Positions 13,010 to 51,791 of a DNA stretch of 64,000 nucleotides are shown here, piece after piece. The notes beneath the pieces were generated by a model. The model had not been told where the DNA came from, ran no database searches, and saw only the letters and a program-made list of their open reading frames with translations. The stretch is from Paludibacteraceae bacterium (GTDB lineage Bacteria > Bacteroidota > Bacteroidia > Bacteroidales > Paludibacteraceae), in NCBI GenBank assembly GCA_017450435.1, contig JAFSTO010000056.1:186001-250000 (forward strand), read 5' to 3'. A program made the translations under genes and the position numbers. Position 1 is the stretch's first letter. Every line of letters begins with the position of its first letter.

Positions 13010-13059
13010 TAGCCGGCACCGGTGTGGTCAGCCCGCTGATTGTTTTAAGGAACAAGGAG
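13010..13059. repeat. Direct repeat, left of the AAA ATPase gene
   Basis: A 50-bp block containing gtgtggtcagcccgctgatt, matching 14466-14515 except for GGCACC versus GGTGCC near its start. Similarity fades over a further ~20 bp of aaggag/gcaaag words. Both copies are followed by 12-bp-stem terminators of unrelated sequence. Confidence 0.8.
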
Positions 13060-13074
13060 GAAAGAGCAAAGAAA

Positions 13075-13193: not shown

Positions 13194-14333
13194 TTAGAAC
13201 GAAGAATATCGCAGCCATAAGGCAAAGAACTTCTCATACACCTCATAACTGCCGTCGTCCCTGCGGTAAAGCAGTTCTTTGTCGAGCATAGTAAGCATTG
13301 CACTCCTGACGGTGCTATATGCGCCGAGTCCGTACTTCCGGAGAAAGGCTGTACTACCGGGCTCACTTACAGTACCTTCTTTGGCTACTGCACGCAACAC
13401 TTGCAGTTGTCGATTGCTTATCAGTCGGCAATAAGTCTGATATGACGGCATCTCTTCCTGCAATACCTGGTTAAGAGTGGATAAGATAGTGTTATAATCA
13501 ATCTGTTCCACACCGCTCTGGTAGAGACGGTTAAGCATGCTCTGCATGTTCCATGTGTAGCCGTCCATAAGGCTGTATAGCTCGTGGAAGGTATCTTCGC
13601 TGATTCGCTGACCATGAGCCGCCATGTGTGCGGAGGCAAACTGATAATACGCTGCCTCGTCAATAGCACCGATATGCATCATCTGTGTGCTACGATAGAA
13701 CGGCCGTTTGGCGGAGGCGAATATCTCGGTCATAAGATGTTTCTTGCTACCCGCGAAGATAAATCGTACATTATGAAGTTGCTGTATATATGTACGCAAC
13801 AGAGCTTCCATCTTTACATCAGTATATTCAGCTATCGTCTGAAACTCATCCAATGCCACATAGCAGGGGGTCGAAGCTTTCTCTAAATAGGAGAAAATCT
13901 GTTGTAATGTCCACTCCTCGCGTTGCGGCTGTATATCTATCATACATTGTGGCATTCCGCTTATAGGGTCTGTTGTGAACACGGGACGGAGCGCACTGAA
14001 TAGGCGTGTTATCTCCGACCACACTTGTTCCGAGAACGGAGTGATACGCTCGGTTAGCACGGCCTGAGCCAGGAGCTTGGTGAAATCTTGCAGACTTGAG
14101 GTGCTGTATAGGTCAACATAAAAACACTGCACTTCGGTTTTGTCAAGCGACTGAAAAAGATGGTGAATAAGCCCTGTTTTACCTATACGGCGCGGACTGA
14201 TGAGTGTAACATTTCTTCCGTTATGCAGCGCATCGGTTAACTCCTTTGTCTCTTTCTGACGGTCACAAAAATATTCAGGTCCCATATATGAGACAACTGA
14301 AAACGGGTTAAAAACTTGCCTCTCTCTTTTCAT
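13194..14333 (-). CDS. ATPase_2-type AAA ATPase with C-terminal winged helix
   Basis: 379 residues. It starts MKRERQVFNPFSVVSYMGPE and has Walker A SPRRIGKTGLI near residue 46 and Walker B CYVALDEFQTI near residue 155. The C-terminal ~80 residues (LQVLRAVAKEGTVSEPGSTA, then KYGLGAYSTVRSAMLTMLDK) look like a winged helix. It resembles the 'archaeal ATPase' family (PF01637) that is abundant, poorly understood and variably located in Bacteroidota. It has its own promoter, iterated repeats in the 5' UTR, and 50-bp direct repeats on both sides, so it appears to be a self-contained cassette. Confidence 0.88.
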   Translation of the reverse strand: MKRERQVFNPFSVVSYMGPEYFCDRQKETKELTDALHNGRNVTLISPRRIGKTGLIHHLFQSLDKTEVQCFYVDLYSTSSLQDFTKLLAQAVLTERITPFSEQVWSEITRLFSALRPVFTTDPISGMPQCMIDIQPQREEWTLQQIFSYLEKASTPCYVALDEFQTIAEYTDVKMEALLRTYIQQLHNVRFIFAGSKKHLMTEIFASAKRPFYRSTQMMHIGAIDEAAYYQFASAHMAAHGQRISEDTFHELYSLMDGYTWNMQSMLNRLYQSGVEQIDYNTILSTLNQVLQEEMPSYQTYCRLISNRQLQVLRAVAKEGTVSEPGSTAFLRKYGLGAYSTVRSAMLTMLDKELLYRRDDGSYEVYEKFFALWLRYSSF

Positions 14334-14465: not shown

Positions 14466-14515
14466 TAGCCGGTGCCGGTGTGGTCAGCCCGCTGATTGTT
14501 TTAAGGAACAAGGAG
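14466..14515. repeat. Direct repeat, right of the AAA ATPase gene
   Basis: Second copy of 13010-13059 in the same orientation. The two copies bracket 1.4 kb holding the ATPase gene and its promoter. Confidence 0.8.
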
Positions 14516-14561
14516 CAAGGAGCAAAGAGCAAGGAGTAAAGAGCAAGGAGTAAGGAACAAA
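14511..14561. repeat. Heptanucleotide tandem repeat
   Basis: About seven 7-bp units alternating gcaagga, gcaaaga and gtaagga. The reverse complement of these words encodes the signal-peptide core of the protein at 31055. Confidence 0.75.
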
Positions 14562-35395: not shown

Positions 35396-37177
35396 ATGAA
35401 AAAGATTAATAAATACTTGCATTCTTTCGTACATAAATCGTACATCGTACTTTTTTCCTTCGTACTTCTCTCCTCCTGCTCATGGATAGAAGAAAACCCT
35501 GACTCACTTATCACGCCGGCACAGCTTGGAGATAGTGAACAAGCTTGTGACCAACTTGTCACCGGTGTTTATTCCAAGTGGATTTATGACATGTTCTGCT
35601 GGGGCTATTTTCCGCGTATGCTGGAGTTTGATGCCGACTACATATCCGGTCCTGACTGGCTCTTTGGTACGTTCGGAGCCGGTAACTTTCAAGGCGAACC
35701 CGATCTCACCGACGCGCTATGGAAAGGCTGCTACGGACTTATCGGACGTGCCAATACGGCTGAACGATATATCTCAGAAATGAAGAATATCTCATCTGCT
35801 TATAAGAACAACGCCTTGGGAGAACTGCGTTTTCAGAAGGCTTTTGCCTATTTTCTCCTTGTTCGCGCCTACGGTCCGATACCTATCCAAAATGAACAAA
35901 TGGTAAATGAACAAATGGTAAATGAACTGAGTAATCCTCGTCAAGAGGTTACGAAGGTTTATGACCACATCATTGGTTTGCTCGAACCCGCTACCCGTAT
36001 GCTCTATAAGAACACCGACGAAGCTTACCGTCCCGGACATGTCTCCGCCGGCTCGGCTGCCGGACTGCTCGCCAAGGTCTATGCCACCGAAGCGGCATAC
36101 GCCATGCCTGCCGGAACAGAACTTATTGTCCGTACGGGTGCTCCCTATACAACGGTTAATGGCAACAAACGCTACGCACCGCTGCAAACCCTTACCTTTA
36201 CCAAACAAGCGGTTCCCGGATATGAGTCGCTTGACCCTCTCCAGCTTTACCGGCAGGCTGCTGATTGGGCGGAAGAACTACTTGGCGGCACTTATGGCAC
36301 TTATGAACTGTCCGACTATTCCGTCCTCTGGACCAAAGCCAACGCTACCGCCTCTGAGTTCCTTTTCTCCATCGGCACGGTCTCCGGCGATGCGACCTAT
36401 AAGACCTCCGTCCACACCCAGTATGAGGGCTATATGACAGCGACCGGCTCGGACTTCATCCAGTCGGGTGGTTGGACAGGCTGCACACGTCACTGGTATG
36501 ACCTCTTCGACCATGACGACTATCGTATCACCAAAGGTGTCCGCCATCGCTGGCGTAACTACACCCAGCGTGAGTCCAACTCCGGCTTCTATTACCCCTA
36601 CGATGATGAATACACCATCATGGCTACGGGGCGCAACCTCGCCGGCGACTGGGTCAAAGACCCATCAGGCATCTTCGCCGACGGCGTGAACTACTACTAT
36701 TCCACCGACGCACAATGCCTCGCCTTCACCACCAAATACGAAGACGTGACGGACAACGCCATTGATAACGCCGATGCCAATTGGCCCTTCCTGCGCCTCG
36801 CGGATGTCATTCTCGTCTATGCCGAAGCGCTTAACGAACTGGGCAAACCGGGTGATGCCATCACTCAACTCAATAAGATACGCGCTCGCTCTAATGCCTC
36901 GCGTGCGTCCATGGGAGGAACCAATGCCCTCTCTACCCAGACCCTCCGCCGTTCGGCAATCATCGAGGAACGAGCCAAAGAGCTTGCGTGCGAAGCAGAC
37001 CGCCGATGGGATCTCCTTCGTTGGGGCATCTACCTCGATGCTATGAATGCTATCGGCGGCACGGATGACTCCGGCGTCAATAAGTCACGCACAGCACGTA
37101 ACCTCCTTTTTCCTCTGCCCGTGCAGGAACTCAATACCAACGCCGCCATTACCGCCAACAACCCCGGCTGGCAGTAA
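35396..37177 (+). CDS. SusD/RagB-type surface glycan-binding lipoprotein
   Basis: 593 residues from the ATG at 35396 (aaaggaga lies about 10 nt upstream; the frame from 35378 adds MKGEIV). Lipoprotein signal ends IVLFSFVLLSSC. SusD features: SLITPAQLGDSEQACDQLV, LGELRFQKAFAYFLLVRAYG with TPR-like helices, and the C-terminal block LRLADVILVYAEALNELGKP ... EERAKELACEADRRWDLLRW. It caps SusC and presents oligosaccharides. At residues ~165-177 a repeat-encoded insertion, NEQMVNEQMVNE, comes from two aaatgaacaaatggt units. Confidence 0.95.
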   Translation: MKKINKYLHSFVHKSYIVLFSFVLLSSCSWIEENPDSLITPAQLGDSEQACDQLVTGVYSKWIYDMFCWGYFPRMLEFDADYISGPDWLFGTFGAGNFQGEPDLTDALWKGCYGLIGRANTAERYISEMKNISSAYKNNALGELRFQKAFAYFLLVRAYGPIPIQNEQMVNEQMVNELSNPRQEVTKVYDHIIGLLEPATRMLYKNTDEAYRPGHVSAGSAAGLLAKVYATEAAYAMPAGTELIVRTGAPYTTVNGNKRYAPLQTLTFTKQAVPGYESLDPLQLYRQAADWAEELLGGTYGTYELSDYSVLWTKANATASEFLFSIGTVSGDATYKTSVHTQYEGYMTATGSDFIQSGGWTGCTRHWYDLFDHDDYRITKGVRHRWRNYTQRESNSGFYYPYDDEYTIMATGRNLAGDWVKDPSGIFADGVNYYYSTDAQCLAFTTKYEDVTDNAIDNADANWPFLRLADVILVYAEALNELGKPGDAITQLNKIRARSNASRASMGGTNALSTQTLRRSAIIEERAKELACEADRRWDLLRWGIYLDAMNAIGGTDDSGVNKSRTARNLLFPLPVQELNTNAAITANNPGWQ

Positions 37178-46096: not shown

Positions 46097-47366
46097 AGTA
46101 TCGCAACTCCGCGCTGCACATGAAGCGCTTTTGACACGCAAAAACGAACCCATCACCATTGATAATTGGCTAAATGGTCAAATAAATGACCAAATGGTAA
46201 ATGATAAAATGGTAAATGGTATTTATACTAAGTATAAATATCCGATTCTCACGGCGGAGCACACGCCGCTGGAGTGGCGGTACGACTTCAACGAGCAGGA
46301 CAATCCCTACTTGATGCAACGCATTATGATGAACGCGGTGCTCAATGCCGGTGCGATTCTCTTTGAGGGCAAATACACCGTCGTGGCACGTGTGGAAGGT
46401 GCAGACCGCAAGTCATTCTTCGCCGTAGCCCAGTCCCCTAACGGGATAGACAACTGGCGCTTCTGGTCCGAACCTGTCACTATGCCGGACGGCAACAACG
46501 CTCCTGCTACCAATGTTTACGACATGCGGCTCACGCGCCACGAGGACGGCTGGATATACGGAATCTTCTGCGTGGAGCGTCATGACGAGACCAAACCTTT
46601 CGACACCTCTGCGGCTACGGCGGCGGCAGGCATAGCCCGCACCAAGGACCTTGTACATTGGGAGCGGCTCGATGACCTCAAATCACTTTGCCAGCAGCGC
46701 AATGTCGTCCTCCATCCGGAGTTTATCCGCACGCAAATGGTAAATGGTAAATGTGTAAATGGTAAATGGTATGCTCTCTATACCCGTCCGCAGGACGGTT
46801 TTATCGAGACCGGCAAAGGTGGGGGAATAGGCTGGACACTCACCCCTGATATTACCCATGCCGAGGTGCGCAACGAGCGTATTATCTTTGGTCGTCAGTA
46901 CCACACGGTCTATGAGGTTAAGAATGGCGAGGGACCTGCGCCCATCAAGACAGCCAAGGGATGGCTCCACCTCGCTCATGGTGTACGCGCAACGGCGAGC
47001 GGACTACGATATGTGCTCTATATGTATATGACTGCGCTCGACGACCCTACGCGGGTTATCGCACGCCCGGGTGGATGGTTCCTTGTGCCCGAAGGTAGTG
47101 AGTACATCGGCGATGTAATGAACGTAGCCTTCTCCAACGGCTGGATCGTGGAGCAAGTACCAAGTGACCAAGTACCAAGTTCCAAGGATTGCCGCCGTGT
47201 CTTTATCTATTATGCTTCGGCGGACACCCGCCTGCATGTGGCTACTACTACCGTGGACAAGCTCCTCGACTACTGTCTCAATACCCCGGAGGATGGCTTG
47301 ACGACCTCCGCCTCCGTAGAGAAAATCAATGCCCTCGTCGCAAAAAATGCCTCAATGTCTAAATAA
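46077..47366 (+). CDS. GH130 beta-1,4-mannosyl-glucose phosphorylase
   Basis: 429 residues, cytoplasmic (no signal). The start at 46077 overlaps the esterase stop by 20 bp; ATG 46071 is the alternative. GH130 motifs: NAVLNAGAILFEGKYTVVAR, VEGADRKSFFAVAQSPNGID, YTRPQDGFIETGKGGGIGW and LHLAHGVRATASGLRY. This pattern fits the GH130_1 group (4-O-beta-mannosyl-glucose phosphorylase), which yields mannose-1-phosphate and glucose. It works with the epimerase at 50616. Three repeat-encoded inserts are visible: INDQMVNDKMVNG near 30-45, MVNGKCVNGKW near 222, and QVPSDQVPSSKD near 360. Confidence 0.92.
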   Translation: MELWSNKVSQLRAAHEALLTRKNEPITIDNWLNGQINDQMVNDKMVNGIYTKYKYPILTAEHTPLEWRYDFNEQDNPYLMQRIMMNAVLNAGAILFEGKYTVVARVEGADRKSFFAVAQSPNGIDNWRFWSEPVTMPDGNNAPATNVYDMRLTRHEDGWIYGIFCVERHDETKPFDTSAATAAAGIARTKDLVHWERLDDLKSLCQQRNVVLHPEFIRTQMVNGKCVNGKWYALYTRPQDGFIETGKGGGIGWTLTPDITHAEVRNERIIFGRQYHTVYEVKNGEGPAPIKTAKGWLHLAHGVRATASGLRYVLYMYMTALDDPTRVIARPGGWFLVPEGSEYIGDVMNVAFSNGWIVEQVPSDQVPSSKDCRRVFIYYASADTRLHVATTTVDKLLDYCLNTPEDGLTTSASVEKINALVAKNASMSK

Positions 47367-47374
47367 ATGACCCA

Positions 47375-48787
47375 ATGGTAAATGACCAAATCGTAAATAA
47401 CAAGTGGCTTCGCCACGTAGGCTACGGTTTCGGCGACATGTCATCGTCGATGTTCTGGAAGGTGTTTTCTTACTACCTGCCGTTCTTCTATAGTAATATC
47501 TTCGGCCTTTCGCTCAAGGATGCAGGTATTATTTTGCTTGTCACACGCATCTGGGACGCCGTCTCTGACCCGATGATGGGGATTATAGCCGATCGTACGC
47601 AGACGCGGTGGGGCAAATACCGTCCGTACCTGCTCTTTGTTGCGCCGCTGTTCTCTATCGCCGGCATACTTTTATTCACCACGCCCGATTGGGGGTATAG
47701 CGCCAAGCTTATTTGGGCGTACGCCACCTATATACTCATGATGACCGTCTATACGGGCATCAACGTGCCCTATGGTGCGATGCTCGGAGTGATGACTGCC
47801 GACTCGCAGGAGAAAACAGTCTATTCGTCCTTCCGTATGTTCTTTGCTTACGGCGGCTCGTTCCTCGCGCTCTTCCTCTGGGAGCCGCTCTGCAACACAC
47901 TCGGCGGCTATAACAGTCCGCAGGGCTGGTTCTGGGCGATGGTAGTCATTGCGGCTGCCTGTTTCGTCCTTTTTATCTGCTGTTTCCTGCTGACGAAAGA
48001 GGAACTGAAGACCGTCTCCACTGTCTCTGTCGGCTCGGATTTCAAGGCACTATTGAGCAACAAACCCTGGTGGATACTCATTGGTGCCGCCCTTTGCTTT
48101 AATCTGTTCTGTACCGTCCGCGGTGCTACCGTAGCCTACTATTTCGCCGACATCATCCCTGCCGGAGCGCAACTGGCTATCGGTCGATGGTCGTTCTTGT
48201 TTTACGCCGGCTTGTTCCTTGCTGTAGGCGAGGTCTCTAATATGATAGGTGTCGCACTCTGCGTGCCTGTCGCTGCGCGGTTCGGCAAGAAAACAACGTT
48301 TATTACTGTCAATATCGCATTGTGTGTACTCTCGGTGTTGTTCTTCTTTATTCCTGTTTCGCAGACCGGCTTCTGGCTCATGCTCCTCGCTCAGGTGCTT
48401 ATCTCTATGCTCACGGGCGTGATGTCGCCTCTTGTATGGTCGATGTACGCCGATGTGTCCGACTTTGCCGAGCAGAAATACAAAACAGCTTCGACGGGAC
48501 TGATCTTCTCCTCGTCCTCCATGGCGCAAAAGTTTGGCGGTGCGATCGGCGGTTCGGCTGCCCTGTGGCTCCTTGCCGCTTGCGGATATATTAGCAATCA
48601 GCCTTCAGCCATCAGCACCCAGCCTGAGTCGGCATTGCTCTGCCTCCGATGCCTGATGTCCTTCATTCCGGCAGCGGTGAGTGTCATAGCTGTCCTCGTG
48701 GTATCGTTCTATCCGCTGACGACATCACGCATGAAAGAGATCGATGCCCAACTACAAATACAACGACAAAACACCAATGGTAAATGA
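47375..48787 (+). CDS. GPH-family MFS sugar:cation symporter (probable mannobiose transporter)
   Basis: 470 residues with about twelve membrane helices. Opening WLRHVGYGFGDMSSSMFWKV and DAVSDPMMGIIADRTQTRWG are typical of the glycoside-pentoside-hexuronide family, as is ISMLTGVMSPLVWSMYADVS. It would carry the disaccharide across the inner membrane for GH130. The first residues, MVNDQIVNN, come from an aaatggt repeat. The stop TGA overlaps the ancestral start of the epimerase gene by 11 bp, in the copy at 48777. Confidence 0.93.
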   Translation: MVNDQIVNNKWLRHVGYGFGDMSSSMFWKVFSYYLPFFYSNIFGLSLKDAGIILLVTRIWDAVSDPMMGIIADRTQTRWGKYRPYLLFVAPLFSIAGILLFTTPDWGYSAKLIWAYATYILMMTVYTGINVPYGAMLGVMTADSQEKTVYSSFRMFFAYGGSFLALFLWEPLCNTLGGYNSPQGWFWAMVVIAAACFVLFICCFLLTKEELKTVSTVSVGSDFKALLSNKPWWILIGAALCFNLFCTVRGATVAYYFADIIPAGAQLAIGRWSFLFYAGLFLAVGEVSNMIGVALCVPVAARFGKKTTFITVNIALCVLSVLFFFIPVSQTGFWLMLLAQVLISMLTGVMSPLVWSMYADVSDFAEQKYKTASTGLIFSSSSMAQKFGGAIGGSAALWLLAACGYISNQPSAISTQPESALLCLRCLMSFIPAAVSVIAVLVVSFYPLTTSRMKEIDAQLQIQRQNTNGK

Positions 48788-48810
48788 ACAAATAAATCTT
48801 CGCTCAGAAG
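48776..48810. repeat. Left copy of the 35-bp duplication around the DUF4143 gene
   Basis: aatggtaaatgaacaaataa followed by atcttcgctcagaag, identical to 50615-50649. The right copy is the beginning of the epimerase gene, so the left copy marks where that gene originally began. Confidence 0.92.
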
Positions 48811-48815
48811 AATAG
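48777..48815 (+). pseudogene. Truncated duplicate of the epimerase gene start
   Basis: The ATG at 48777 reads MVNEQINLRSEE and stops at TAG 48813-48815. The first eleven residues equal the epimerase N-terminus at 50616 and diverge exactly where the 35-bp duplication ends. It overlaps the transporter stop as the original gene would have. Confidence 0.85.
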
Positions 48816-48866
48816 AGGTTTGTAGCGTCCCATCTGTGGAAATTACATGACGAATTGCAAGAAACA

Positions 48867-48898
48867 TTTGCAGATATCATTTGTTTTTTGTACCTTTG
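48867..48898 (+). promoter_or_regulatory. Promoter of the DUF4143 ATPase gene
   Basis: TTTG (48867-48870), 20 nt, TACCTTTG (48891-48898): a full-strength Bacteroidota promoter carried inside the insertion. Confidence 0.8.
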
Positions 48899-48904
48899 CA
48901 GCTG

Positions 48905-48981
48905 AAAATGTGATTTTACGCTATATTTATAGCCCGAAAATGTGATTTTATACTACAAAAAACTACCTAAAAATGTGATTA
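48905..48981 (+). promoter_or_regulatory. Three iterated aaaatgtgatt repeats in the ATPase leader
   Basis: aaaatgtgatt occurs at 48905, 48937 and 48970, i.e. every 32-33 bp (three helical turns), between the predicted transcription start and the ATG at 48987. Likely a site for autoregulation or for a specific binding protein. Confidence 0.65.
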
Positions 48982-48986
48982 AAACC

Positions 48987-50333
48987 ATGCAGCTGCTTGA
49001 TAGAAAGATAGATATATACCTCTCTAAGTGGAAAAGCAATCCGGAGAGAAAACCTTTGATTGTAAAAGGTGCTCGGCAGATAGGAAAAACAGAATCCATC
49101 AGAGCGTTTGGAAGGAGGAACTATGAATCTGTCATAGAGATAAATTTTGTACTTCAAAAGAAATTCAGAGCTATTTTTGACAATGGATATGATGTGGCTT
49201 CCATCATCAAGAATATCTCACTATTGGAGCCGTCATGGCAATTCATCCCCGGCAATACATTGCTTTTCTTTGACGAGTTGCAGAAATGTCCCGATTGCGC
49301 CACTTCGCTCAAGTCCTTTTGTCAGGACAAGCGTTACGATGTCATTTGTTCAGGCTCGCTGATGGGTATCTACTACGAAGAAATAGAATCGAATGCCGTA
49401 GGATATAAGGAGGATTATGAGATGCACTCGATGGACTTCGAGGAATTTCTTTGGGCAAAGGGTTATTCGCCGGAGCAGATAGAGGAGCTATACGGACACA
49501 TGTCCACCTTGCAGCCTTTTTCGCAAATAGAGATGGACACAATGACCGCTCTTTTTTTGGACTACATGACTCTCGGCGGCATGCCGGAAGTGGTGAGGAT
49601 GTATATTGACAATGGGCATTTTGAGGGCACACTCCGATTGCAACGACAGCTGCTCAAAGACTATGAAGAGGATATAACGAAATACGCAAGCCAAACCGAC
49701 AAAGCAAAAGTGCTGGCTGTATATAGCCACATATCCGCCTTTCTTGCTAAGGAGAACAAGAAATTCCAGATTTCCAAGATTGCCAAAGGAGCCAGAAACA
49801 GAGAATATATAGGTGCTGTTGAGTGGCTGAAACAAGCCGGAGTGGTGAATGTCTGTTATTGTTTGAACAACGCAGAGTTGCCACTGAAAGGCAATTATAA
49901 TCCGGATTACTACAAGATTTATTATCACGACACCGGGCTGCTGATTGCATCTCTTGACGAGGAGGCGCAAGAAGATATGCGTGCGAACAAGAATTTTGGC
50001 ACGTATAAAGGGGCTATATACGAAAATATAGTGGGAGAGATGTTGCGCAAGTCGGGTTATGAGCAGTTGTATTTTTACAAGCATGATAACCCGGCGATAG
50101 AGATGGACTTTTTCGTCCGTGATGCAGATTCGTTGGTTCCGGTAGAAGTGAAAGCCAAGGATGGAGCCACTGCTTCACTCAATAACCTCATCAAGTGGGA
50201 ATCGTTCCCGGATGTAAAATACGGTATCAAATTCGGCTATAAAAACATCGGGTGGAATGGTCAGTTCTACACGTTCCCATATTTTCTTTCCTTTCTGCTA
50301 AGGCGTTTTCTCAAAGACAGGAAAGAGAGGTAA
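48987..50333 (+). CDS. AAA_14/DUF4143-type ATPase inserted in the PUL
   Basis: 448 residues from the ATG at 48987 (MQLLDRKIDIYLSKWKSNPE); the longer frame starts before the leader repeats. Walker A is VKGARQIGKTESI near residue 27 and Walker B is LLFFDELQKCPD near 92. MEEFL-type HSMDFEEFLWAKGYSPEQIE and the C-terminal DUF4143 nuclease-like block (YENIVGEMLRKSGYEQLYFY, AIEMDFFVRDADSLVPVEVK, resembling the E/D-xK core) are seen. This family is very numerous in Bacteroidota and of unknown function. It has nothing to do with mannan use and sits between flanking 35-bp duplications. Confidence 0.92.
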   Translation: MQLLDRKIDIYLSKWKSNPERKPLIVKGARQIGKTESIRAFGRRNYESVIEINFVLQKKFRAIFDNGYDVASIIKNISLLEPSWQFIPGNTLLFFDELQKCPDCATSLKSFCQDKRYDVICSGSLMGIYYEEIESNAVGYKEDYEMHSMDFEEFLWAKGYSPEQIEELYGHMSTLQPFSQIEMDTMTALFLDYMTLGGMPEVVRMYIDNGHFEGTLRLQRQLLKDYEEDITKYASQTDKAKVLAVYSHISAFLAKENKKFQISKIAKGARNREYIGAVEWLKQAGVVNVCYCLNNAELPLKGNYNPDYYKIYYHDTGLLIASLDEEAQEDMRANKNFGTYKGAIYENIVGEMLRKSGYEQLYFYKHDNPAIEMDFFVRDADSLVPVEVKAKDGATASLNNLIKWESFPDVKYGIKFGYKNIGWNGQFYTFPYFLSFLLRRFLKDRKER

Positions 50334-50390
50334 ACGAGGGCCCATGTTGTTGGTTATCCAATTAGAGCGTCAGTTCATCATTAGGGCTTC

Positions 50391-50468
50391 GCCCGCATCA
50401 TTTATAAAATCCGTCCCAACTGTCTAAAAATCCGTCCCATCTGTGGGAGCTTATCGCCCGCATCATTT
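50391..50468. repeat. Repeats at the right end of the insertion
   Basis: cgcccgcatcattt occurs at 50391 and 50455. cgtcccatctgtgg at 50433-50446 repeats a word from the left end of the insertion (48826-48839). Otherwise 50334-50548 has no gene. Confidence 0.6.
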
Positions 50469-50524
50469 CCCGCTTAGTGTCACAAATAAGCAAAAAAGTA
50501 TAAGTGTATATCACTTATTTTTTG

Positions 50525-50532
50525 TATCTTTG
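50525..50532 (+). promoter_or_regulatory. Promoter-like -7 element feeding the epimerase gene
   Basis: TATCTTTG at 50525-50532, no TTTG at -33. It could restore transcription of the epimerase gene separated from its operon. Confidence 0.45.
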
Positions 50533-50548
50533 CACCGCTATTTTATCC

Positions 50549-50630
50549 AACGCACAAATGGTAAATGGTAAATGTCCAAATGGTAAATGGTAAATGGTAA
50601 ATGGTAAATGTCCAAATGGTAAATGAACAA
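50549..50630. repeat. aaatggt heptamer tract at the epimerase start
   Basis: About nine aaatggt/aaatgtcc units in tandem, longer than at any other site in the window. Several in-frame ATGs arise from it. Confidence 0.85.
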
Positions 50631-50649
50631 ATAAATCTTCGCTCAGAAG
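50615..50649. repeat. Right copy of the 35-bp duplication
   Basis: Identical to 48776-48810; it contains the start codon and first 11 codons of the epimerase gene. Confidence 0.92.
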
Positions 50650-51791
50650 CTCAGTCTCTGCTCGAAACCAATATCCTGCGTTTTTGGCAGGAACGGATGG
50701 TGGACTACCAGCAGGGTGGATTCTACGGACGTATAGACGGATATAATGTACTGCATCCGGATGCAGAGAAAGGAGCTGTTCTCAATGCGCGTATACTATG
50801 GACGTTTTCTGCGGCTGCGCGTGTGTTGCATAATACACCTTACCGCATACTGGCTGCGAGAGCTTATGACTACCTCGTGCAGCGGTTTGTGGACCGCGAA
50901 CAAGGTGGTGTCTATTGGTCGCTCAATGCCGATGGTACCCCGCTGGACACCAAGAAGCAGACCTATGCTATCGCTTTTGCTATATACGGTCTGACGGAGT
51001 ACTATCGCGCTACCCAAGATAGTGAAGCCCTCAATGCCGCTATCCATCTCTTTGACGACATCGAGACGCACGCCTTCCAATCGTACATGGTAAATGACCA
51101 AATGGTAAATGGCTATGTGGAGGCTCTCACCCGCGACTGGCAGCCGATAGCTGACATGCGTCTCTCCGAAAAAGACGAGAACGGTGTCTTCACCATGAAC
51201 ACCCATCTCCATGTGCTCGAAGCATATACTAATCTCTACCGCGTCTGGCGCGAACCGCGGGTAGAGCGCCAACTCCGTACACTCATCGATATCTTTGCCA
51301 ACCGTATTTTTGATCCCGCAACCGGTCACTTGATGCTTTTCTTTGACGAGAGTTGGCAACCATCCAACACCCATACTTCTCCCGGACATGATATAGAAGC
51401 GGCATGGCTGCTGCATGAGGCATTGGAGGTGTTAGGTGATGAGGTTCTGCTGAATCAAACACTGCCGATCATTCATTCATTGGCGCAAGCAGCGGAAGAG
51501 GGCATTATGGATGAAAAAGAATGGTGGTGTTTTGCTGAGGCGGTGGTGGGATATCTCGACCAATGGAAACTGTATCAAGGAGAAAAACCTATAGAAAGTA
51601 ATATCAATCTTGAATTGGCAGAAACAGCATTTCACTATATCCAAACCCATTTGATGGACCGTGAGAATGGCGAATGGTTCTGGTCTGTCCTGCCGGACGG
51701 CACTCCCGATCGCTCGCACGACAAAGCGGGATTTTGGAAGTGTCCGTACCATAACTCACGTATGTGTTTAGAGATTCTGCAGCGCCAATAA
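50616..51791 (+). CDS. Cellobiose/mannobiose 2-epimerase (AGE family)
   Basis: 391 residues from the ATG at 50616, taken as the original start because it is the one inside the 35-bp duplication that overlaps the transporter stop; upstream ATGs come from repeats. Family motifs: QQGGFYGRIDGYNVLHPDAE, KGAVLNARILWTFSAAARVL, KKQTYAIAFAIYGLTEYYRA, HTSPGHDIEAAWLLHEALEV, and HDKAGFWKCPYHNSRMCLEI with catalytic histidines. It converts beta-1,4-mannobiose to mannosyl-glucose in the cytoplasm, the substrate of GH130. A QMVNGY insert from the aaatggt repeat is seen near residue 165. Confidence 0.92.
   Translation: MVNEQINLRSEAQSLLETNILRFWQERMVDYQQGGFYGRIDGYNVLHPDAEKGAVLNARILWTFSAAARVLHNTPYRILAARAYDYLVQRFVDREQGGVYWSLNADGTPLDTKKQTYAIAFAIYGLTEYYRATQDSEALNAAIHLFDDIETHAFQSYMVNDQMVNGYVEALTRDWQPIADMRLSEKDENGVFTMNTHLHVLEAYTNLYRVWREPRVERQLRTLIDIFANRIFDPATGHLMLFFDESWQPSNTHTSPGHDIEAAWLLHEALEVLGDEVLLNQTLPIIHSLAQAAEEGIMDEKEWWCFAEAVVGYLDQWKLYQGEKPIESNINLELAETAFHYIQTHLMDRENGEWFWSVLPDGTPDRSHDKAGFWKCPYHNSRMCLEILQRQ

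Follow-up and report, generated by a model that had tools for sequence, protein, structure and literature searches.

In a 64,000-nucleotide stretch of the genome of a Paludibacteraceae bacterium (GCA_017450435.1, contig JAFSTO010000056.1, positions 186,001 to 250,000; hereafter the window), a lone gene for a DUF4143-type ATPase appears to have been inserted at the junction between a sugar transporter gene and an epimerase gene. The best explanation of this locus, to which we give a probability of about two in three, is that the gene was copied in without a transposase, either by a template-switch-like event or by the fill-in of a staggered break, with duplication of the target. The target duplication and the empty sites in relatives are accompanied by scars of the same kind at many DUF4143, PF01637, Fic, and AlbA_2 genes. 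These scars seem to form a transposase-free signature of single-gene insertion that is common to several gene families of the genus.

A 35-bp direct repeat (AATGGTAAATGAACAAATAAATCTTCGCTCAGAAG) was detected by a repeat finder in two copies, 100% identical and 1839 bp apart, and the sole gene assigned between them is that of the ATPase, which runs from an ATG at 48987 to its stop at 50333. The right copy forms the beginning of the epimerase gene (PF07221). The left copy overlaps the stop codon of the transporter (48787), reads MVNEQINLRSEE followed by a stop, and is a dead fragment of the epimerase start. The repeat finder, Pfam, and the open reading frames thus confirm the layout given in the initial annotation of this DNA, including the segment of about 1.8 kb between identical copies. 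An exact 35-mer is far beyond chance, because just 9/1063 mismatched pairs of upstream and downstream flanks of DUF4143 genes reach a score of 20 in the flank comparison described below. The leading 11 bp of this 35-bp repeat (AATGGTAAATG) also extend a GGTAAATG run inside the right end of the insert, and therefore the unambiguous duplication is at least 24 bp, the full range being 24-35 bp. The locus comprises the following features.

47375..48787, plus strand: intact GPH/MFS_2 sugar transporter gene, its stop overlapping the left repeat copy (PF13347, 2.4e-94; TIGR00792)
48776..48810, plus strand: left copy of the 35-bp direct repeat, relic of the epimerase start, MVNEQINLRSEE then stop (repeat finder)
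48826..48839, plus strand: left copy of the inner 14-bp repeat CGTCCCATCTGTGG (repeat finder)
48867..48898, plus strand: promoter-like sequence of the ATPase gene (TTTG, 20 bp, TACCTTTG), called from the sequence and a promoter pattern scan with what we take to be the consensus
48902..48980, plus strand: three phased direct repeats (CTGAAAATGTGATT and variants; repeat finder)
48987..50333, plus strand: AAA_14-DUF4143 ATPase, 448 amino acids, with Walker A, Walker B, and PD-(D/E)XK-like D374..E387xK389 motifs (PADLOC PDC-S01, 9.3e-152)
50433..50446, plus strand: right copy of the inner 14-bp repeat (repeat finder)
50508..50534, plus strand: second promoter-like sequence, now upstream of the epimerase gene (repeat finder)
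50556..50614, plus strand: right end of the insert, made up of GGTAAATG/TCCAAATG units in a run (repeat finder)
50615..50649, plus strand: right copy of the 35-bp direct repeat, the epimerase start (repeat finder)
50616..51791, plus strand: intact AGE/cellobiose 2-epimerase-like gene (PF07221)

The window locus may have been built by more than one event, because two further pairs of similar sequences also flank the ATPase gene. One is the inner repeat, whose copies are the sole two exact ones in the genome (one more copy carries a mismatch), and the other consists of the two promoter-like stretches, which are 89% identical over 27 bp (48874-48900 and 50508-50534).

A search for the epimerase over 40 relatives gave a match in 15, and loci from 11 of these were fetched. 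In five relatives of the same genus (L010, L012, L013, L014, L016; transporter identity 58-92%) the transporter and epimerase genes are paired without an ATPase match. The two genes overlap or are adjacent, with a gap of about 75 bp in L014, and L010 (92%) has single copies of the corresponding sequences at the junction. Because these five relatives have the pair without the ATPase, the gene appears to have been inserted at the transporter-epimerase junction; the insertion with target duplication proposed in the initial annotation, and the uninterrupted junction that it expected in related genomes, are both upheld. The remaining six fetched loci have no transporter in the stretch covered; three of them have a GH130 gene instead or nothing recognisable, and some end at contig ends. 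Six orthologs of the ATPase in the genus (L080-L085, 83-85% identity) lie in flanks unlike those of the window, and their DNA homology is confined to a stretch that begins in the promoter region and ends close to the stop; in L081 and L085 the ATPase gene seems, by eye, to follow a similar gene. It is very improbable that the relatives lost an ATPase gene already present at this junction in their ancestor, with the 35-bp repeat having arisen by chance or through local duplication: the five ATPase-less pairs and the dead left copy both argue against this, and no point was found in its favour.

Flanking repeats were surveyed by comparing 500 bp upstream with 500 bp downstream of each gene (ungapped, +1/-2, score at least 20, simple repeats excluded). 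Set 1, from the genus, was reduced from 148 profile hits to 116 unique genes of at least 350 amino acids and to 114 with 300 bp on both sides; set 2 holds 110 loci from two other searches, with 101 genes. Controls were the other genes of the fetched loci (7 other AAA genes were excluded from those of set 2), and in mismatched pairs the upstream flank of one gene was compared with the downstream flank of another. Direct repeats flank 31/114 DUF4143 genes of set 1 versus 11/225 controls (Fisher 2e-8). Taking other AAA ATPases out lowers the control rate to 5/212 (2.6e-11), controls with 80-bp gaps on both sides give 3/50 (Fisher 0.0015), and mismatched pairs give 9/564. In set 2 the repeats were found at 14/101 genes, versus 1/160 controls and 0/499 mismatched pairs; pooled over both sets, the controls amount to 6/372 genes. 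Over the 45 scarred DUF4143 cases the repeat length is 28-181 bp, and the copies are exact in 8/45. Open reading frame starts were taken as the first possible ones, so that the length of any repeat overlapping a start is underestimated (that of L260 scored as 43 bp and is about 159 bp by blastn).

Several of these repeats can be traced to a neighbouring gene. The repeat is a copied end of the upstream gene in L184 (last 24 codons and stop, 75 bp), L198 (43 bp, exact), L205 (78 bp), and L141 (63 bp), and in L171, as in the window, it is a copied start of the downstream gene. For L141, ten orthologous neighbour loci were covered, L141 itself included, and 9/9 examined have no ATPase match within 1.5 kb. 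In L103, L104, and L169 the repeat is a promoter and the unit starts near the transcription start. Movement via mRNA copying, which such units might suggest, was rejected since other units, including that of the window, carry promoter-like sequence inside. A second lone ATPase gene in the window bears the same kind of scar, a 63-bp direct repeat with 59/63 identical positions:

13010..13072, no strand: repeat copy downstream of the second ATPase gene (63-bp direct repeat)
13194..14333, minus strand: second lone ATPase gene (PF01637/AAA_14 type, 379 amino acids), flanked by the repeat
14466..14528, no strand: repeat copy upstream of the second ATPase gene (63-bp direct repeat)

Two trivial sources of the repeats were considered and rejected. 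An assembly artefact is argued against by the many imperfect repeats, by their varied lengths, and by recurrence in finished sequence: L412, from a single-contig genome, is related to the draft locus L260 and matches it at 99% identity over 3.5 kb, including the two repeat copies of about 159 bp. The L260 case is therefore no assembly artefact, nor is L412 an independent event. The promoter consensus is also unlikely as a general source, as mismatched pairs give just 9/564, 0/499, and, for Fic and AlbA_2, 5/398; in the weak promoter-type cases L033, L080, L097, and L375 (AlbA_2) the repeats may still be consensus.

The scars are not specific to DUF4143 ATPases. For Fic, AlbA_2, and PF01637, the best-scoring 30 loci per family in one genus were taken, of which 27, 24, and 28, respectively, were usable after the flank filter. 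Scars were found at 4/27 Fic (PF02661) and 5/24 AlbA_2 (PF04326) genes, together 9/51, versus 5/398 mismatched pairs, and the 1.5-kb flanks of the scarred Fic and AlbA_2 loci contain no ATPase of these families. The scar rates of DUF4143 and Fic/AlbA_2 genes do not differ significantly (p=0.24). Among the PF01637-type ATPases 14/30 are scarred, or 14/28 with full flanks, which is above Fic/AlbA_2 at p=0.004. The PF01637 set is an unbiased test, unlike the 13 other AAA ATPases of set 1, whose rate of 6/13 is biased because they were found from eight seed proteins chosen after the repeats had been noticed. For PF09820, a repeat was found at 1/5 usable genes (13 loci fetched, L382-L387 run), which are too few. 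Because Fic and AlbA_2 genes are scarred too, the favoured view shifts from self-transposition of the ATPase to a general route of single-gene insertion. Accordingly, the outcome for the initial annotation is divided: movement of single genes is supported, repeats do flank other DUF4143 genes, and neither the lack of an empty site nor the lack of other flank duplications, which it had named as contrary results, was encountered; its idea that this mobility is a DUF4143 property explaining the huge copy number of the family is not supported, since unrelated lone genes are scarred as well and PF01637 genes more often. Four PF01637-type ATPase genes (L293, L296, L309, L148) share a TTATTTTTGGC(GG/CA)-like sequence just before the gene and 2-6 bp past its stop, and this pair may mark the ends of a unit typical of that subfamily, as a terminal repeat, instead of a target duplication.

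A second feature of these ATPase genes is a phased array of direct repeats beside the promoter. In the window, three repeats (starts 48902, 48934, 48967) directly follow the -7 box of the ATPase gene. A free scan (periods 22-60 bp, score at least 24) found arrays upstream of 80/114 DUF4143 genes of set 1, versus 9/212 controls and 9/114 of the genes' own downstream flanks. Among the set-1 arrays scoring at least 25 (n=69), 59 have a period of 32 bp, 7 of 31, 2 of 33, and 1 of 34. Set 2 gave arrays at 55/101 genes, 53/55 of them at 31-32 bp, versus 12/160 controls; 7 of these 12 have a period of 31-32, and 5/7 are neighbours transcribed divergently from a DUF4143 gene, with one upstream region common to both, while two (L205, L226) are not. 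Arrays with a score of 24 or more at 31-32 bp were also found in four of nine records from isolates or plasmids (Segatella copri, Parabacteroides distasonis, Fusobacterium animalis, and Roseburia). In the distant subfamily L252-L281 all genes stay below 24 at this period; among distant members from single-contig genomes, two (L403, L419) barely attain it. Unrelated lone genes have arrays in 1/27 (Fic) and 0/24 (AlbA_2) cases, and among 30 PF01637 ATPases (L282-L311) 7/8 arrays found have a period of 51-52 bp, or five helical turns. Phased TGTGA pairs occur in 44/47 relatives at 60% identity or more, 7/168 below this, and 1/385 controls. The array sequence is specific to the subfamily and, in that of the window, conserved across phyla.

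With a spacing of three (or five) helical turns, a position next to the promoter, and co-divergence with the protein, the array is probably an autoregulatory operator bound by the ATPase itself, a prediction that would give this ATPase family a concrete candidate ligand. An RNA or coding role of the array is disfavoured, as 27 of the 69 arrays lie upstream of the promoter (37 start downstream of the -7 box and 5 lack a match to the promoter) and neither of the two most frequent periods, 32 and 31, is divisible by three. Two loci carry unusual forms of the array. In L144 the 32-bp-period array is duplicated, upstream of the ATPase gene and directly past its stop codon. L088 (G006:C9) is a truncated relative that retains 32 codons, the promoter, and the array, the rest having been lost, by eye, between two CGACGCAAGTCGTATTTCAAAATTTATAAT-like copies; here the array outlived its gene.

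The array also bears on whether the ATPase moves itself, its PD-(D/E)XK domain nicking the target at a variable distance, with the array as left end of the element and the 3' end of the gene as right end. In Tn7, arrays of TnsB sites lie at the element end, and the phased array can be likened to them. Among the DUF4143 genes that have both flanking repeats and an array, 25/28 carry the array within the unit, on the right side of the left repeat copy and at distances of -2 to 371 bp from it; this position, the co-divergence of repeat sequence and protein, the enrichment of scars at DUF4143 genes in both sets, and the excess at PF01637 genes over Fic/AlbA_2 would all suit self-mobility. However, Fic and AlbA_2 genes are scarred at a rate that DUF4143 genes do not significantly exceed, and the scarred ones have no such ATPase within 1.5 kb. 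Element ends are missing as well: none of the 8 inverted pairs found (length at least 14) joins the two ends of the window unit, no conserved ends, and specifically no conserved right end, were seen by eye across the scarred DUF4143 loci, and the length of the repeat is not fixed as it is in the target duplications of transposons. Self-mobility of the ATPase is therefore an unlikely reading.

Homology-assisted capture was considered as another route. Incoming DNA with a stretch homologous to the target, either a diverged allele of the neighbour or a dispersed GGTAAATG repeat, would join one-sidedly, or as a circle by one crossover, and the duplication would be the homologous stretch itself. 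All ten codon differences between the duplicated and the intact gene end are synonymous in L184 (4/4) and L205 (6/6), which is unlike the neutral decay of a fresh duplication and would be explained by allelic replacement or a homologous donor; over all neighbour-overlapping cases, some with doubtful neighbour frames, 30 differences are synonymous versus 24 non-synonymous. The GGTAAATG repeats, which lie at the window's right junction and are dispersed in the genome and the genus, would also fit such capture. Against this stand the 8/45 exact repeats, the need at many unrelated loci for donors that already hold the gene beside the same target, and the stretch CTTCGCTCAGAAG within the window repeat, which belongs to the epimerase and is not GGTAAATG repeat. 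We regard this route as improbable but not negligible.

Short GGTAAATG/ACCAAATGGTAAATG repeats occur in the window at 35902, 42876, 46196-46211, 46739-46761, 47377, 48779, 50560-50618, and 51089-51104. They lie at start codons and within genes, where they form MVNDQMVNG-like coding stretches, and are dispersed in the source genome (G000) and the genus; one of this type opens a gene in L062 resembling PheS by eye. Related loci contain further dispersed repeats with 7-8-bp units, of the CTCTTTAA and TTCATAAT types.

Transposase-free copying or fill-in fits the observations because the duplicated length and the cargo are arbitrary and neither ends nor a transposase are recognisable; no transposase or integrase was found within the window unit. 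In this mechanism, a lone PDC-S01-type ATPase gene with its promoter-like sequence and operator-like array would enter at the overlap of transporter stop and epimerase start, and the joining step would duplicate 24-35 bp of the target and leave both neighbours intact; the epimerase gene apparently gains its own promoter. The most likely route, we infer, is that copying leaves the chromosome, passes through the incoming DNA, and resumes slightly behind the point of departure, perhaps helped by the GGTAAATG repeats at the right junction. Fill-in of a long staggered break would give the same product. On either route the duplicated length would be arbitrary, transposase and element ends would not be needed, any gene could be cargo, and selection would retain those events that leave both neighbours whole. 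The initial annotation had offered an insertion without transposase or a template switch. The variable length and the lack of visible ends speak for a template-switch-like event, and the unit is transposase-free as stated, with none between the copies; transposition proper fits less well.

Several observations weigh against this copying mechanism. About three quarters of the DUF4143 genes of set 1 and 87/101 of set 2 have no such repeat, and the synonymous-only differences in L184 and L205 have been noted above. Any junction microhomology is absorbed into the maximal repeat, leaving no direct trace of template switching, and the inner ends are motif-free by eye. Of 27 matches from six single-contig genomes, 20 DUF4143 genes were compared, some of them also in set 2, and 3/20 score: L412, L407 (127 bp, 90%), and L410 (342 bp, 94%). 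The last two belong to one genome, G188, have an internal inverted structure, and are at most putative target copies; their repeats were not met again among the other G188 loci fetched. All seven plasmid records score below 20.

The ATPase of the window matches PF13173 AAA_14 (1.3e-23) and PF13635 DUF4143 (1.3e-30), both over their Pfam cut-offs. Residues G28, G33, and K34 (Walker A), D96 and E97 (Walker B), and D374, E387, and K389 (PD-(D/E)XK-like) are invariant in ten divergent members. A profile search of the PDB gave significant matches to Midasin only (residues 14-67), and a search of PHROGs gave one weak match, to an unknown family. Relatives at 53-67% identity are found in records labelled Clostridia, Bacilli, Fibrobacter, Treponema, and Akkermansia, mostly metagenome bins; isolates with relatives include Roseburia inulinivorans, Butyrivibrio sp. 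FCS014, and Ruminococcus albus 7 (59%). The PADLOC profile PDLC04786 (PDC-S01) matches residues 4-440, and the gene is a lone gene among sugar-utilisation genes, as the single-gene definition of PDC-S01 asks; by this match it is a candidate phage-defence gene. The ATPase of L077 matches PDC-S27 (2e-199). PDC-S01 is described as ranking fourth in frequency among the defences of all prokaryotes and was nominated via guilt-by-embedding, most PDCs being pending validation (PMC12988326); 10,358 PDC-S01 were counted in rumen genomes (PMC13356809).

Should such genes land one by one at many sites, their embedding would say little about a role in defence. The scars also provide a readable record of single-gene acquisition, which is usually inferred from patchy distribution alone. 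As a tentative extension, there may be a general transposase-free pathway in these gut bacteria by which whole single genes are copied in, the copying restarting tens of bases behind the entry point, so that scars of variable-length target duplication remain while neighbours and promoters stay intact. Its most frequent passengers, or else its drivers, would be the PDC-S01/PDC-S27 ATPases, for which their phased arrays might serve as guides, and the "embedding" of these ATPases in defence loci may reflect mobility and not immunity. In the titles and abstract beginnings listed for papers on DUF4143, AAA_14, COG1373, COG1672, PF01637, the MNS clade, and defence candidates no such scars are mentioned, and no description of a phased operator-like array of these ATPases was met in the titles, abstract beginnings, and passages searched.

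The array resembles iterons and phased operators, in which short direct repeats are spaced by whole helical turns beside the gene of the presumed binding protein. The spacing by whole turns and the position beside the gene of the predicted binder are shared; here the spacing is 31-32 bp (51-52 bp in PF01637 ATPases), the protein is of the AAA-PD-(D/E)XK type, and no replicon was seen. The scars resemble the products of template-switch or microhomology-mediated insertion and of homology-facilitated illegitimate recombination, which give target duplications of arbitrary length, need no element ends, and accept any cargo. These three properties are shared by the DUF4143, PF01637, Fic, and AlbA_2 cases, for which such insertion is the mechanism proposed here; it is not known as a recurrent route for whole single genes. 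The ATPases themselves share with PDC-S01 and PDC-S27, whose profiles those of the window and L077 match, the architecture of an ATPase fused to PD-(D/E)XK (PMC12988326); insertion scars or a phased array are not mentioned in the passages covered, and the terms "direct repeat" and "target site" are absent from the main text of that paper. The insertion sequences IS1549 and IS1634 produce target duplications of 8-514 bp, of arbitrary length, for which no mechanistic model had been proposed as of 2008 (PMC2266710). Long direct repeats of variable length are thus common to both; IS1549 and IS1634 carry a DDE transposase and terminal repeats, whereas the cargo here is an AAA ATPase, Fic, or AlbA_2 gene that travels without a transposase.

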